Shown: positions 15,674 through 29,287 of the stretch, piece by piece | Position numbering within the stretch: position 1 is the stretch's first letter | How the letters are laid out: each line of letters starts with the position of its first letter | IMG/VR virus record: IMGVR_UViG_3300010391_001853 | Location: 1 to 38,475 of that record | Strand: one strand, 5' to 3' | DNA: 38,475 nucleotides | Source of the DNA: a virus | Notes under the pieces: generated by a model | Seen by the model: only the letters and a program-made list of their open reading frames with translations | What the model was told of the DNA's origin: nothing | The model's database searches: none | Position numbers and translations under genes: made by a program

Positions 15674-15903
15674 TGAGTGGACCCTCAAGCGCTCGCCCCC
15701 CGTTGATTAAACATCCTGGGTTTCCGAAGGATTTGCCTTGTCTGGGATGGTGCGGAAAGACACGTCGGAGTACGGGACCGGAAGATCGGTACTGTGATCA
15801 TTGCCGAAAGACCAAAGAAGATCGGGCTCAGGACATGCCCGAGGCGGCTCTCTACCAGGCGAACAGTTCACTGAGGAGGAGGAACCACGACGATGCCCCC
15901 TAA
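15673..15903 (+). CDS. Zinc-ribbon protein, 76 aa
   Basis: ATG 15673 overlaps the methyltransferase stop. The product contains LPCLGWCGKTRRST and YCDHCRKTKED, i.e. C-x3-C and C-x2-C ligand pairs about 15 residues apart. The zinc ribbon is followed by a basic tail (NSSLRRRNHDD). It overlaps the portal start by 11 bases. Small proteins of this type with a C-x-x-x-C-G-K motif are common next to phage terminase and portal genes, but no function is established. Confidence 0.65.
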   Translation: MSGPSSARPPLIKHPGFPKDLPCLGWCGKTRRSTGPEDRYCDHCRKTKEDRAQDMPEAALYQANSSLRRRNHDDAP

Positions 15904-17617
15904 GCCACGAGTGCCGAAGCCTCCGTCGCTCCGATCCCTTCGGGAGGAACTCAAGAAGGCGGACATCCAGCTGGCGTTGGAGCAGACTCGGTATGCGGAG
16001 AAGCTTCTTCATTCCGTGCAGGAGCAGACCTCGAACGTGGTGACCGATACGGATACCGATGGACGATGGACCAAGATCTCCGAAGAGGGGAAGCTGGCAA
16101 CGGCCAAAGATCTGGGGGGGCTTCTTCAGGATCGGGATGTTTCGCGTCGGCAGTGCTACCGCGCCTGGCGCTTGGACCCCCATGCCCGGGGCGTCCTACG
16201 GCATTTCCAGAAGTTCATTGTGGGGCGGGGCGTCGGACTGGACTTCGCGGATCAGGTACGGGGTACCTGGGATGATCTCGAAGCCCCTGTGAAAGTCACG
16301 CCGAGTGAGGAGGAAGAGTTCGTCACGAAACTCGTCTGGGATGAGTTTGACCGCCGGAACCGCTTTCGGGCTCGGGTGAAAGAGATCGTTCTCCGACTCT
16401 TTCGAGATGGCGACGTATTCATTCGCAGGTTCACGGGGCCCGGGAAGGGGAAAGTCTCGGTTCGGTTTATCGAGCCTGAGAATATTCAGTCCCCTCCTGG
16501 CAAGACCGAAGGTAAGACGATCCTCCCAGGGGATTCCCTCCAGGTGGAAAAGAAGACGGAGATCCGAGAAGGGATCGAATATCTCCAGGAGGATATCGAG
16601 ACCGTTGTGGCCTATCATGTCAAGATGAGCGGGGACTCGGAACCAAAACGGATCGAAGCCAAAGACATAATCCATCTTAAGTGTCTGGCTGATGCGAATG
16701 ACCTGCGGGGGATTCCGCTCTTGGAGTGCGTGCTCAAAAAGTTCACCAATTATGAACAGTGGGAAGAATATCGCCTCATTCTTAACAAGGTGCGGACCGC
16801 CGTCGCCCTGATTCGGAAGGTCGAAGGCACGGCAACCCAGGCACAGTCCATCATCCAGGGACGTCTCCCCGCTCGCGCGTCCCCGGAAGGCCGAGAGCCC
16901 CAAACCGCCTCGGGGCAACGGGAGGTTATGTTCCGCCCCGGAACGATTCTGACTCCAGGCCCAGGGGTGAACTATGAGTTCACCTCCGCGAACTTGAACG
17001 CGCAGGATGCCGCCCATGACGGACGCAACATTCTTTTGTCCATCGCCGCGGGGTTGGGTATCCCAGAGATGCTCGTGACAGGAGATTGGAGTAACGCGAA
17101 TTACGCTTCCACGGTCGAAGCGCGCTCCCCGGCCGTCCGGGAGTGGGAGGACTGGCAGGAGGTCTTTACTCCTCCCATCGAGCAGATTGCCCGCTGGGTC
17201 TTGGACGAAGCGGTGGAGGGGAAGATCCTTCCCGCCGAGACCGATAAGAAAGTGACCCTTCGGTGGCCTCCCATCATCCACAAGGATGAAGCCGTGCAGA
17301 CCCAGCGCCTGGCCACGCTCAACGCGGCGGGGTTGCTCTCCAAGACGACCTGGGCTGCGCTGGAAGGATTCATCTGGGACGACGAGTTGGAGAACCTGCG
17401 GGACGAGGGAGAGGGAATGGGCGAGGGGCTCCCTCCAGATGATGAAACAAGCATGGAGGCTCGGTCCCAGCGAACGCACAAGGCGCTCAAAGCGCTAGGA
17501 GAACTTGAGGAGACCTTCCGCGCCCTGAAGGCAGAGAATCCCTATCGAGAACTGTTGGAGCAGACAATCAACTATACGCGAAAGTCCTTAGGTCTCTCGG
17601 AAGTCAAGAGCCCGTGA
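15893..17617 (+). CDS. Portal protein
   Basis: 574 residues, preceded by GAGGAGGAACCACGACG. The basic N-terminus is followed by VSRRQCYRAWRLDPHARGVL and FIVGRGVGLDF, then the stem/wing-like VRFIEPENIQSPPG and AYHVKMSGDSEPKRIEAKDI. HLKCLADANDLRGIPLLECV, LSIAAGLGIPEMLVTGDWSN and YASTVEARSPAVREWEDW are features repeatedly seen in lambda/A118-type portals, where a Y-A-S motif and an R-x-W-x-x-W follow the stem. A charged C-terminal helix (LGELEETFRALKAENPYREL) ends it. It would form the dodecameric ring for DNA packaging and tail attachment. Next to MuF and protease as expected. Confidence 0.9.
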   Translation: MPPKPRVPKPPSLRSLREELKKADIQLALEQTRYAEKLLHSVQEQTSNVVTDTDTDGRWTKISEEGKLATAKDLGGLLQDRDVSRRQCYRAWRLDPHARGVLRHFQKFIVGRGVGLDFADQVRGTWDDLEAPVKVTPSEEEEFVTKLVWDEFDRRNRFRARVKEIVLRLFRDGDVFIRRFTGPGKGKVSVRFIEPENIQSPPGKTEGKTILPGDSLQVEKKTEIREGIEYLQEDIETVVAYHVKMSGDSEPKRIEAKDIIHLKCLADANDLRGIPLLECVLKKFTNYEQWEEYRLILNKVRTAVALIRKVEGTATQAQSIIQGRLPARASPEGREPQTASGQREVMFRPGTILTPGPGVNYEFTSANLNAQDAAHDGRNILLSIAAGLGIPEMLVTGDWSNANYASTVEARSPAVREWEDWQEVFTPPIEQIARWVLDEAVEGKILPAETDKKVTLRWPPIIHKDEAVQTQRLATLNAAGLLSKTTWAALEGFIWDDELENLRDEGEGMGEGLPPDDETSMEARSQRTHKALKALGELEETFRALKAENPYRELLEQTINYTRKSLGLSEVKSP

Positions 17618-21748: not shown

Positions 21749-22984
21749 ATGAGGCGCGAAGACATCAAGTCCATGGTGAAGACGTGGGGGCTCAAGGGGT
21801 TCGTCAGCGTGCTGGCGGATCTCCTGGAGGGCAAGGACCAGCAGGGGAAGACGATTCCCAAGCTCGCCCCCGAACGCGTCTCCCTCCGAGGGCTCTGGGA
21901 GGCGCTGGTCGGACCGGTCGAGGAAACTCTCGATCTGGGGCGGAACACGGGGCGATTCAACTATGTGGAGATCCAGGAAGCGGTCGAGTCCACCGCCTTT
22001 CCCTCGGCGACCGGGGTGCTGATCGCGGCCAAGGTCATCGAAGGCTACGACATGCCGGGCATGATCGGGGACCAGTTGGTCACGGTCATGACCTCCAAGC
22101 TGAAGTCGGAACGGATCGTTGGCATGACCTCGCTGGAGGGCCCCAAGGAAGTCGGCGAGGGGATGCCGTACGATGAATCGTCGTTCGCCGAGAAGTACGT
22201 GACCACCGAGACGGCCAAGAAAGGCCGCATCCTGGAGATCACGGAAGAGGCCATCTACTTCGACCAGACCGGACAGATCCTGCTGCGGGCTGGGCGTCTG
22301 GGGGAGATGACTCGCGAAGAGCGAGAGCTTATCATCCTGGGCGGCGTCGTGGATGTGGCCGGGGCCACCGATCTGGTGGTAGCCGGGGTGAAGTTCCGTC
22401 CCGTGTATCGTCCGGGAGGCGTAGCGGAAGCCCTCTACTCGGCGGGGAACAACAACCTCCTCGCCACGGCTACCCCCCTGGTGGACTGGACCGATCTCGA
22501 CGAGGCCATGCAGTATCATGCAGAGAATGTCCGGGACGATCGGGCGGTCTCTGGGGAGCGGCTCCCCATCATCTTCATGCCGAAGATCCTGCTCACGTCT
22601 CGGAAGAAGGCGGCGACGGGGGCGCGAATCATCAACGCGATGGAGGTGCGGTCCGGAGACATCACCGCCGGGGCCGGGACCCAGACGCTGACCTCGAACC
22701 CCGTGGGCACTCTGGCCCCGGGCCTGAAGCCTCTCTCCTCCCCCTTGCTGGACTATCTCGCCGCGCTGACAGGGGCGCAGTACGACGACTCCGATGACTG
22801 GTTCGTGGGCGATCCCCAGAAGCAGTTCATCTGGCAGGAGATCTGGCCCCTCCAGACCTTCCGGGCCCCGTCGGATGACGAGTCTCGGTTCCGTCGGGAC
22901 GTGGTGGCGCGATACAAGGTACGCTACTACGGGGGCATCGCGGCTATCGAAGAGCGGTACTTCGTCAAGGTCAACGATACATAG
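21749..22984 (+). CDS. Major capsid protein
   Basis: 411 residues, preceded by a very purine-rich GGGGAAGGAGGAGGAG. An N-terminal helix (MRREDIKSMVKTWGLKGFV) leads into an HK97-fold-like body with FNYVEIQEAVESTAFPSATG, VTVMTSKLKSERIVGMTSL, EKYVTTETAKKGRILEITEE, ELIILGGVVDVAG and the C-terminal RRDVVARYKVRYYGGIAAIE. The body resembles the Mu-like/'phage major head' group, where an E-K-Y-V-T-T-x-T-x-K-K-G-R-x-L-E-I-T-E-E stretch marks the E-loop and P-domain edge. Gene order after the decoration protein confirms it. A hairpin follows the gene. Confidence 0.88.
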   Translation: MRREDIKSMVKTWGLKGFVSVLADLLEGKDQQGKTIPKLAPERVSLRGLWEALVGPVEETLDLGRNTGRFNYVEIQEAVESTAFPSATGVLIAAKVIEGYDMPGMIGDQLVTVMTSKLKSERIVGMTSLEGPKEVGEGMPYDESSFAEKYVTTETAKKGRILEITEEAIYFDQTGQILLRAGRLGEMTREERELIILGGVVDVAGATDLVVAGVKFRPVYRPGGVAEALYSAGNNNLLATATPLVDWTDLDEAMQYHAENVRDDRAVSGERLPIIFMPKILLTSRKKAATGARIINAMEVRSGDITAGAGTQTLTSNPVGTLAPGLKPLSSPLLDYLAALTGAQYDDSDDWFVGDPQKQFIWQEIWPLQTFRAPSDDESRFRRDVVARYKVRYYGGIAAIEERYFVKVNDT

Positions 22985-23068: not shown

Positions 23069-23920
23069 GTGAGCTTTACGTATACCACCTCGCCCGCTGG
23101 GGCCAAAGACAAGGTCCGAGGTACTTCTTCCTGGGCCAAATCGTCTAGGCACAGGGCGAAAATCTCTGCGTCGAACAAAGCAACGAAAAGGAGCCCTGAA
23201 GGACGCAGGCGCATAGAACAGGCGAAACTGCGCATGCGCGCTTTTTGGCGAAGCCCTGAAGGACGAGCGAAACGAGCGGAAGCAAACAGGAAAACCTGGC
23301 GAGATCCTGCAGCCCGACGGCGGCGGATTGCGGGGATGACAAAAGCCTTACACCGACCAGAGGTTCGCCGTCGGCACCTTTTAGCCATTCGACGAAATGC
23401 TAAAACCGTAAGTAGATTAGTCATCCAGCTGGTCAACGCAAGAAAGAAGGGGGACAAAGCTCTACATGAGTTTTGGCGGACAAGAATCAAAGAAGGAAAG
23501 TCTACCTCAGAATCCAGAAAACGTCACTCAAGGGCTTCTAAAAGGCGATGGAAGAACCCAAAGATTGCGCACCGAATGATTCAAAGTATGCAGCTGGCGC
23601 CTAACCACCTTGAGCGTAAGGTGTTGGGTGTTCTAGTCTCCGCGTTTCCTGAGGCGGGGTGGAAGTTTAACAATGGGCAAGTCATTGCCGGGAAAATTCC
23701 TGATTTTGTTCGGTCTGATGGAGTACCTCTGGTTGTTGACGCATTTGGTGACTACTGGCATAGGAAAGACATCCCATCAACAATTAGAAAGCGCCAAGAT
23801 GTGTTTAGGCGAGCGGGTTATCGCCTAGTTGTTGTGTGGGAGCGGGAACTCCGAGTTGGCTCCCAGAACTTACTCCGCCAGGTGCAGCGCGCAGAAAGAA
23901 AGGTATGCCGTGGGGTTTAG
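23069..23920 (+). CDS. Vsr-like (EDxHD) homing endonuclease
   Basis: GTG 23069 with GGGGAGG 4 bases before it; 283 residues, very basic. The middle carries NUMOD3-like repeats of the form W-x-x-P-E/A-x-R-x-R (RAFWRSPEGRAKRA, RKTWRDPAARRRR, HRPEVRRR). The C-terminal nuclease has HLERKVL (E182), KIPDF, LVVDAFGDYWH (D224, H231), RQDVF (D244) and LVVVWERELR, the pattern of Vsr-type homing endonucleases such as I-Bth0305I. The first 17 residues (SFTYTTSPAGAKDKVR) match the N-terminus of the connector gene directly downstream. The base composition is visibly more AT-rich than in neighbours, so it is a transferred mobile gene. I saw no intron core around it. Confidence 0.85.
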   Translation: MSFTYTTSPAGAKDKVRGTSSWAKSSRHRAKISASNKATKRSPEGRRRIEQAKLRMRAFWRSPEGRAKRAEANRKTWRDPAARRRRIAGMTKALHRPEVRRRHLLAIRRNAKTVSRLVIQLVNARKKGDKALHEFWRTRIKEGKSTSESRKRHSRASKRRWKNPKIAHRMIQSMQLAPNHLERKVLGVLVSAFPEAGWKFNNGQVIAGKIPDFVRSDGVPLVVDAFGDYWHRKDIPSTIRKRQDVFRRAGYRLVVVWERELRVGSQNLLRQVQRAERKVCRGV

Positions 23921-28338: not shown

Positions 28339-28491
28339 GTGGACCTTCCTGTCTGGGTCCAGGAGGAGATTCGGCAATTCGACCCTCCGGCAACGGGGAA
28401 GGTTGTCATTGTCATCGAACGCTATCAAGGAGGCGTAACTCAGATTGAAATTGGGGGATCAGTGCGGGTCAAACCCCGCAAACCATCATGA
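28339..28491 (+). CDS. Small conserved phage protein, 50 aa
   Basis: GTG 28339 opens a 50-residue frame (VDLPVWVQEEIRQF, then PPATGKVVIVIERYQGGV and GGSVRVKPRKPS). Phages commonly carry a protein of this length with 'D-L-P-x-W', 'F-x-P-P-x-T-G-K-V' and an 'x-I-E-x-x-x-G-G-V' strand, of unknown function. A GAGGAGGCAGAGGAG tract precedes the start. The stop at 28489-28491 overlaps the ATG of the next gene at 28488. Confidence 0.7.
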   Translation: MDLPVWVQEEIRQFDPPATGKVVIVIERYQGGVTQIEIGGSVRVKPRKPS

Positions 28492-28528
28492 TTTTTAACG
28501 GGCAGTTCGCCAACGGCATGAAGCCCCT
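28488..28528 (+). CDS. Minor structural protein, exon 1
   Basis: ATG 28488 overlaps the previous stop (ATGA). It encodes MIFNGQFANGMKP plus two bases of a Leu codon before the group I intron. Without splicing the frame reads on to a TGA inside the intron at 28779-28781, giving a 97-residue product with no sensible second half. The N-terminal 'F-N-x-x-F-A-N-G-x-K' pattern suits small phage virion proteins. The exact splice point (after T 28528) is inferred from a U-G pair in P1. Confidence 0.6.
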
Positions 28529-28839
28529 ACTGAACCCAACTACTCTGTTGGGAGGGAGGACTTCATGGCCGCCGGCACATGGAAGATTTACGCTCGCTTG
28601 GGCTAGCCACACAGCAATGTGTGTCTACAACGGCGTGAATTGCGGGAACCCTACAGCTGAGAGGCCAGGGGAATCCGCAGCCAAGCCGCTCAGGAATGGG
28701 CGGAAGGTTCAGAGACTAGAGGAAGTAGACCAGACCGGTCGAACCCTCCACGAGCGCGCCGCATCCCCATGCAGAGGATGATGAGATAGTCCCAGCCTCC
28801 GTGGAAACGCGGAGTGGCCGGATAAAGAGCCGGTCGAAG
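28529..28839 (+). ncRNA. Group I self-splicing intron, no ORF
   Basis: About 311 bases. The exon-side ATGAAG (28518-28523) pairs with CTTCAT inside the intron (P1). CCCAAC/GTTGGG forms an inner hairpin. TGCGG (28641-28645) pairs with CCGCA (28675-28679) as P4; CCCT (28649-28652) with AGGG (28667-28670) as P5; CCGC/GCGG as P6. GTTCAGAGACTA (28707-28718) and GATAGTCC (28785-28792) give the P7 GACTA/TAGTC pair, the most diagnostic part. CTCCGT-GGAA-ACG-CGGAG is a GNRA-capped P9. The length, 2 modulo 3, brings the exons into frame. Ends are approximate (the 3' end, after G 28839 or 28836, is the less certain). No endonuclease is encoded inside. Confidence 0.88.
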
Positions 28840-29287
28840 TCAAGAGTTGAAAGCGAAGAAGTATATCGGCAACGGCACCATCACCCTGGGGGCGGGCGTC
28901 TTCAAGATGGCCCTGCACCGAGCCTCAGCATCCGCCGCGATTCTCGTCCTCTCGACGCGCTCGACCTGGGCGTCGATTCCGGGCGAGATTTCAGCCGTCG
29001 GAGGCTACGTGGCGGCTGGACGCAACCTCGTCCCGGCCACTGCGCAGTGGACCGTCGGCGCGTCTACCAAGCAGTACAAGTTCACCTATACGACAGCTGG
29101 ACTCGTGTTCACAGCGTCCGGGGCGTCCTTGAGCAACATCAAGTACGCGGTGATCCGGAACTCCACGGGTGCCGGTGCTGGCAAGGTGCTGTGCTTCTGC
29201 ACCCTGTCCTCGGCCGCGTTCACCATTACGTCGCCGAACACGCTGACGATTTTGCCGGCGGCAACAGGAGTGTTCACGCTGGCCTAA
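28840..29287 (+). CDS. Minor structural protein, exon 2
   Basis: Exon 2 continues in frame with exon 1 after intron removal. It encodes the bulk of the protein: KKYIGNGTITLGAGVFKMAL, SAVGGYVAAGRNLVPATAQW and FKMALHRASASAAIL, ending FTITSPNTLTILPAATGVFTLA. Small phage proteins with 'T-I-x-L-G-x-x-x-F-K-M-A-L' and a late beta-rich part are common among minor tail and head-fibre-like proteins. If spliced, the whole product is about 162 residues. A TTG at 28847 would be a poor start on its own, another sign that translation begins in exon 1. Confidence 0.7.

Follow-up and report, generated by a model that had tools for sequence, protein, structure and literature searches.

A small endonuclease-free group I intron after codon 10 of a late-region phage gene, with close relatives at a second site 7 nucleotides away

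Is a late-region gene of this phage split by a group I intron and, if so, what does removal of the intron restore? The window analyzed here comprises 38,475 nt (IMG/VR record IMGVR_UViG_3300010391_001853, positions 1 to 38,475). A first-pass annotation had placed such an intron at 28529-28839, within a virion gene. The intron, its exons, and the elements that flank them are all on the plus strand, and related loci are referred to by L numbers. The cmscan search that the annotation had proposed as a check found one Rfam match in the window above its cut-off, to Intron_gpI (RF00028), at 28580-28814 with a score of 62 bits (cut-off 50 bits) and an E value of 1.6e-13. The covariance model detected a P3-P8 core, including P4, P6, and P7, in the expected order. 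Since P1 is part of the model, the match begins within exon 1.

The borders of the intron were located by comparison with intronless alleles. A search of IMG/VR with the exon 2 protein recovered 80 loci, most of which have an unbroken reading from MAAGTWKIYA (or a close variant) into KAKKYIG. The N terminus and exon 2 are contiguous in the intronless loci L002, L004, L006, L011, and L014, and the gene of intronless relatives, read from its own start, encodes MAAGTWKIYAKAKKYIGNGTITLG.... In the window the same N terminus (MAAGTWKIYA) is encoded by ATGGCCGCCGGCACATGGAAGATTTACGCT at 28565-28594, preceded at 28550-28559 by the Shine-Dalgarno-like GGGAGGGAGG, a good ribosome-binding sequence for exon 1. 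The gene resumes at 28850 with exon 2 (28850-29287; KAKKYIGNGTITLG...GVFTLA, stop), which encodes a phrog_644-like protein. The intron therefore occupies 28595-28849. It is 255 nt long, which is 0 modulo 3 and not 2 modulo 3 as had been calculated, and is inserted in phase 0 after the tenth codon. The borders proposed in the first-pass annotation were displaced, the 5' border by 66 nt and the 3' border by 10 nt, both upstream of their true positions. The last base of exon 1 (28594) is U and the last base of the intron (28849) is G, a rule also kept in five homologous introns. Placing the border one base further to the left would give an identical protein, but neither the U nor the G would then be in place. 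An in-frame UAG, read from 28565, lies in the guide region at 28604-28606 (intron nt 10-12), and unspliced RNA would yield only a 13-aa peptide; an in-frame UAG or UAA, beginning at nt 5 or nt 10 of the intron, is found in all six homologous introns. Removal of the intron gives a 155-aa protein that is collinear with the intronless homologues, with the predicted spliced junction TGGAAGATTTACGCTAAAGCGAAGAAG (...TACGCT/AAAGCG..., the slash marking the junction). The exon-intron junction had no match in the bacterial genomes searched.

Pattern scans and parsing identified five further distinct intron-bearing alleles of the gene, in L090 (identical at the locus to L091-L093), L003 (the same contig as L087), L082, L088, and L089. 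An Rfam check of 30 related records detected an intron in one, L003. The six introns are 233-266 nt in length and 67-87% identical. All six fit one secondary structure of 59 pairs, in which 98.9% of cells are paired and 17 pairs are changed on both sides; none of 500 shuffles was as good, and slid structures were 28-40% paired. This covariation, together with the RF00028 score, bears out the earlier assignment to group I. P4, P5, P6, P7, and P9, all of which the annotation had listed, are present in the window's intron, P7 being formed by GACUA (28714-28718) with UAGUC (28787-28791). P3 pairs CGGCGUG (28631-28637) with 28755-28761; like P7, it is identified by the RF00028 match and by covariation. 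By inspection of the sequence, P1 (28589-28605) pairs the exon bases UA(C)GCU (28589-28594) with the guide GGCUA (28601-28605), with a U.G pair at the splice site. The 5' strand of P10, CGCUU (28595-28599), pairs with AAGCG in exon 2 (28851-28855), and a U-A pair in the window is replaced by C-G in L090 (CGCCU with AGGCG), a compensatory change. The P9.2 hairpin at 28816-28835 (GGCCGG-AUAAAGAG-CCGGUC) has an invariant loop and both-side changes at three of its six pairs. L082 appears to lack P2.

Between P7 and the 3' strand of P3 all six introns carry two extra helices, which in the window occupy 28719-28748: P7.1 (28719-28722 with 28745-28748) is changed on both sides at three of four pairs, and P7.2 (28728-28731 with 28737-28740) at one of four. 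In their core and in P7.1 and P7.2 the introns resemble subgroup IA of Rfam Intron_gpI, and the two helices assign all six to subgroup IA. No endonuclease is encoded among the ORFs of the intron, as had been reported.

We propose that the intron RNA folds into a P3-P9 core in which the guide would hold the 5' exon end UACGCU (P1, with U.G at the cut) and P10 would hold the 3' exon. Two transesterifications would then excise 28595-28849 and ligate exon 1 to exon 2, allowing synthesis of the 155-aa protein. Among U positions in the spliced message the window's true junction ranks fourth of 96 by guide pairing, P1 being short and its pairing modest. Across the six introns the ranks are 4/96, 3/89, 7/106, 1/88, 10/91, and 5/88. 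These values are consistent with the assigned junctions and give them modest support; guide-pairing rank alone does not single out the splice site. The split gene has intact counterparts in relatives, a covarying conserved core, U and G at its borders, and an in-frame stop, features from which splicing in the cell is predicted. It is highly probable that the window contains a small autocatalytic IA-like intron that separates codons 10 and 11 in a late-region gene, with mobility that perhaps involves free-standing nucleases.

Two other readings of the locus were weighed. With exon 1 ending at 28528 and an intron at 28529-28839, as first annotated, the 311 nt removed (2 modulo 3) leave the frame open, and the protein would start MIFNGQFANGMKPL... 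from an ORF beginning at 28488. The intronless alleles rule out these borders and this exon 1: in them MAAGTWKIYA directly precedes KAKKYIG, and the frame of the ORF from 28488 is not that of the gene. Moreover, its MIFNGQ stretch coincides with a covarying hairpin (28500-28526), which in relatives does not share the gene's reading frame. We give this arrangement virtually no chance of being correct. It is also most improbable that the intron is a degenerate one which has kept its core and lost splicing, with exon 2 translated from an internal TTG start at 28847. An ORF from that TTG (28847-29287) does exist, but the catalytic helices are all intact, compensatory changes have been maintained, exon 1 preserves the gene's first 10 codons despite a separation of 255 nt, and an in-frame stop directly follows exon 1.

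The hairpin at 28500-28526, formerly read as part of exon 1, is a conserved leader element, GGGC-AG-UUC-GCC-AAC-GGC-AU-GAA-GCCC, with 10 bp and two 2-nt bulges (AG and AU). It recurs before the same gene in L009, L011, L013, L014, and L082, before other phage genes in L139/L140 and L141, and within an insert in a capsid-like gene in L100. All cells pair in eight distinct hairpin sequences, and four of the 10 pairs are changed on both sides. The hairpin has no match in Rfam and is possibly a translation or late-expression element. Three matches in bacterial genomes were taken as chance, two being inside an open coding frame and none having the inner stem. Hairpin loci also include L098, L099, L116, and L111, and are mostly just upstream of virion-type genes. 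In L100 (5200-5700) the capsid-like gene (MANITTTTAANFIP...) is split by an insert that carries a LAGLIDADG-type ORF (YLAGFIDGEGC), the AUG of which is in a leader-type hairpin. In the window, a small ORF of 50 aa at 28339-28491 has homologues in L009, L011, L014, L082, and L141. Its motif, LPxWVxxxIxxFDAPxTGKVxIxLERYQGGVTKxEIGG, is usually encoded 5' of the hairpin, before different genes.

The protein restored by splicing belongs to phrog_644, a family with no assigned function, and has no Pfam match and no sequence match in the PDB. A distant homologue, gp24 of mycobacteriophage Ogopogo (32% identity, E 0.009), is encoded after minor tail genes and before lysin A. An AlphaFold model of the protein (pLDDT 70, pTM 0.75) had no PDB fold match with an E value below 0.001. 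In BFVD it matched uncharacterized phage proteins, best a Mycobacterium phage Onyinye protein (E 2e-6, TM 0.68-0.72), and then, weakly, tail-collar fiber proteins. The earlier label of virion gene is plausible from the Ogopogo neighborhood and these folds, for a family that itself carries no functional assignment; gene neighborhood and weak fold resemblance make a virion or tail role likely. Upstream in the window are a portal gene (15893-17617), a gene matching phrog_133 (head maturation protease; 21749-22984), and an MptE-like gene (PF01973; 27416-28336) that is syntenic in nearly all relatives. Directly after the phrog_133-match gene, the ORF at 23069-23920, which had been called a homing nuclease, has repeats like nuclease-associated motifs and a C terminus like DUF559/Vsr; the DUF559 match is below the cut-off (E 0.012) and leaves the label unproven.

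The six introns occupy two sites. Site A (after ...TACGCT) is used in the window and L090, and site B (after ...TGGAAGAT), 7 nt upstream and in phase 2, in L003, L082, L088, and L089. Splicing at either site would restore the same protein and an open frame in all six alleles. Alternative placements are excludable because of the flanking bases: in L089 GAT is followed by the intron and the 3' exon begins CTATGCG, while TTACGCT precedes the intron in the window. The guides differ accordingly in sequence, UAGGUCU for AGAU/CUA at site B and CGCYUGGGCUA for UACGCU/AARGCG at site A. The former can pair with AGAU and CUA; the latter can pair with UACGCU (one base bulged) and, via P10, with AAGCG in exon 2. 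L089 (site B) and L090 (site A) encode proteins that are 97% identical and have introns 87% identical end to end. Their coding sequences are 78 and 67% identical in the first two 60-nt blocks (120 nt) and 88-98% identical over the rest; in its first 60 nt, L090 has a higher identity (92%) to the intronless L106. This patchwork suggests exchange around the insertion site.

Free-standing homing-endonuclease genes adjoin most of the introns. In five of the six intron-bearing lineages such a gene, of one of two nuclease families, is directly upstream: directly before exon 1, L082, L088, L089, and L090 encode a protein that combines NUMOD3 with Phage_endo_I (PF05367), and L003 encodes an HNH_3 protein there. 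These neighbors of the gene in relatives bear more on the intron than does the ORF at 23069-23920. The L082, L088, and L003 nucleases pass Pfam cut-offs, and those of L089 and L090 were assigned by similarity; in the PDB, the PF05367-type domain finds a match in T7 endonuclease I. In the window no endonuclease gene adjoins the intron gene; the small ORF at 28339-28491 is the only one there, and between it and exon 1 no endonuclease gene is present. Among 23 intronless clusters two have such an endonuclease gene (L013; L026/L028), compared with five of six intron-bearing lineages (Fisher p 0.001, uncorrected for phylogeny). L135, outside the 23-cluster count, is a third intronless lineage with the endonuclease. 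The link between intron and endonuclease is therefore loose. Most intronless loci have the MptE-like gene immediately next to the counterpart of the split gene, with no room for an endonuclease gene. In L026, L028, and L019 the start-codon region has been replaced and a conserved AAGAWKIYT is fused to new upstream coding sequence; L026/L028 adjoin the endonuclease gene.

How the introns came to two sites, and how they move, can be read in several ways. One intron lineage may have relocated by 7 nt within the gene among closely related phages, its guide having changed to match the sequences on either side of the new site, a history that we regard as possible though doubtful. Because homing does not alter the insertion site, and reverse splicing does not alter the target as long as the guide is unchanged, a 7-nt relocation would be natural short-range retargeting, perhaps aided by nearby endonuclease cuts. 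That two members of an intron family invaded sites A and B independently has nearly an even chance: the guides differ, and introns of the family occur in other genes as well (L083-L086 and L094), but the sampled members in those genes have much longer branches, and the near identity of the L089 and L090 introns and proteins argues for a move within the gene. An intron-core tree did not resolve the order of sites A and B or the direction and number of moves between them (no starred branch), which is compatible with separate invasions. As to the agent of movement, the nuclease-less intron may spread with the upstream enzymes (NUMOD3 plus T7-endonuclease-I-type, or HNH) in the style of collaborative homing, in which case the window would have lost such a gene or never had one. 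This proposal is much less certain than splicing. Ordinary recombination between co-infecting phages might instead account for all movement, with the nucleases as hitch-hikers near a recombination hot spot. Endonuclease genes generally cluster near structural genes (PMC10448857), endonuclease-only and intron-only alleles both exist, and the exons of L089, L090, and L106 form a patchwork; the presence of a nuclease of either family directly upstream in five of the six intron-bearing lineages speaks against this explanation, to which we give some, though lesser, credence.

The first-pass annotation had considered an intron in a structural gene unusual, but introns with and without a nuclease are documented in phage capsid and tail genes (PMC3706429 and references there). 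Mycobacteriophage BAKA (Cluster J) has a 265-bp endonuclease-free intron in tail gene 33, with splicing shown by RT-PCR (PMC3706429). The present intron is likewise short and endonuclease-free, in what is probably a late structural gene, with U before it, G at its end, and intronless sister alleles. It differs in phage and gene, and for BAKA no endonuclease-linked relatives with insertions at two positions of that gene are described. Collaborative homing loci are known from T3/T7-like phages, cyanophage psbA with F-CphI, and the ICP1 terminase with an adjacent T5orf172 nuclease (PMC3984707, PMC6083498, PMC10448857). They share with the present family an ORF-less group I intron and a free-standing homing-endonuclease gene beside the split gene, here in relatives; unlike them, the relatives carry an enzyme of the HNH or of the NUMOD3 plus T7-endonuclease-I type, and no such gene adjoins the intron in the window. 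In rDNA, too, related introns sit at neighboring positions, S1046 and S1052, which are 6 nt apart and have been explained by reverse splicing (PMC1299323). Those introns share a 5' exon target, whereas here the 5' exon ends (GGAAGAU and UACGCU) and the guides differ.

We found no paper on this split gene among open-license papers. The gene, the allele family, and the pair of sites 7 nt apart are new; endonuclease-free introns in virion genes were already known. The borders correct the annotation of a split phrog_644-like gene family in environmental phages. Related genomes include alleles with both intron and endonuclease, with the intron alone, with the endonuclease alone, and with neither, a set of all four states that is useful for testing collaborative homing, and nearly the same intron at two sites 7 nt apart makes target change by a group I intron directly testable.

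Database phages matched the intron core only in part; no match covered 80%, and overall identity to recorded phage introns was low. A looser pattern also picked up L096 and L097, which are merely coincidental sequence matches, and L095, which has a more distant intron-like core. Related introns elsewhere are in genes named by eye: capsid-like (L083 and L084), glycosyltransferase-like (L086), and structural-looking (L094). In L085, a contig of 6974 bases, one major-capsid-like gene contains two group I introns (102.7 and 67 bits), the 3' ends of which share AAGTAAAAGATAAAGAGCTTTTACG.
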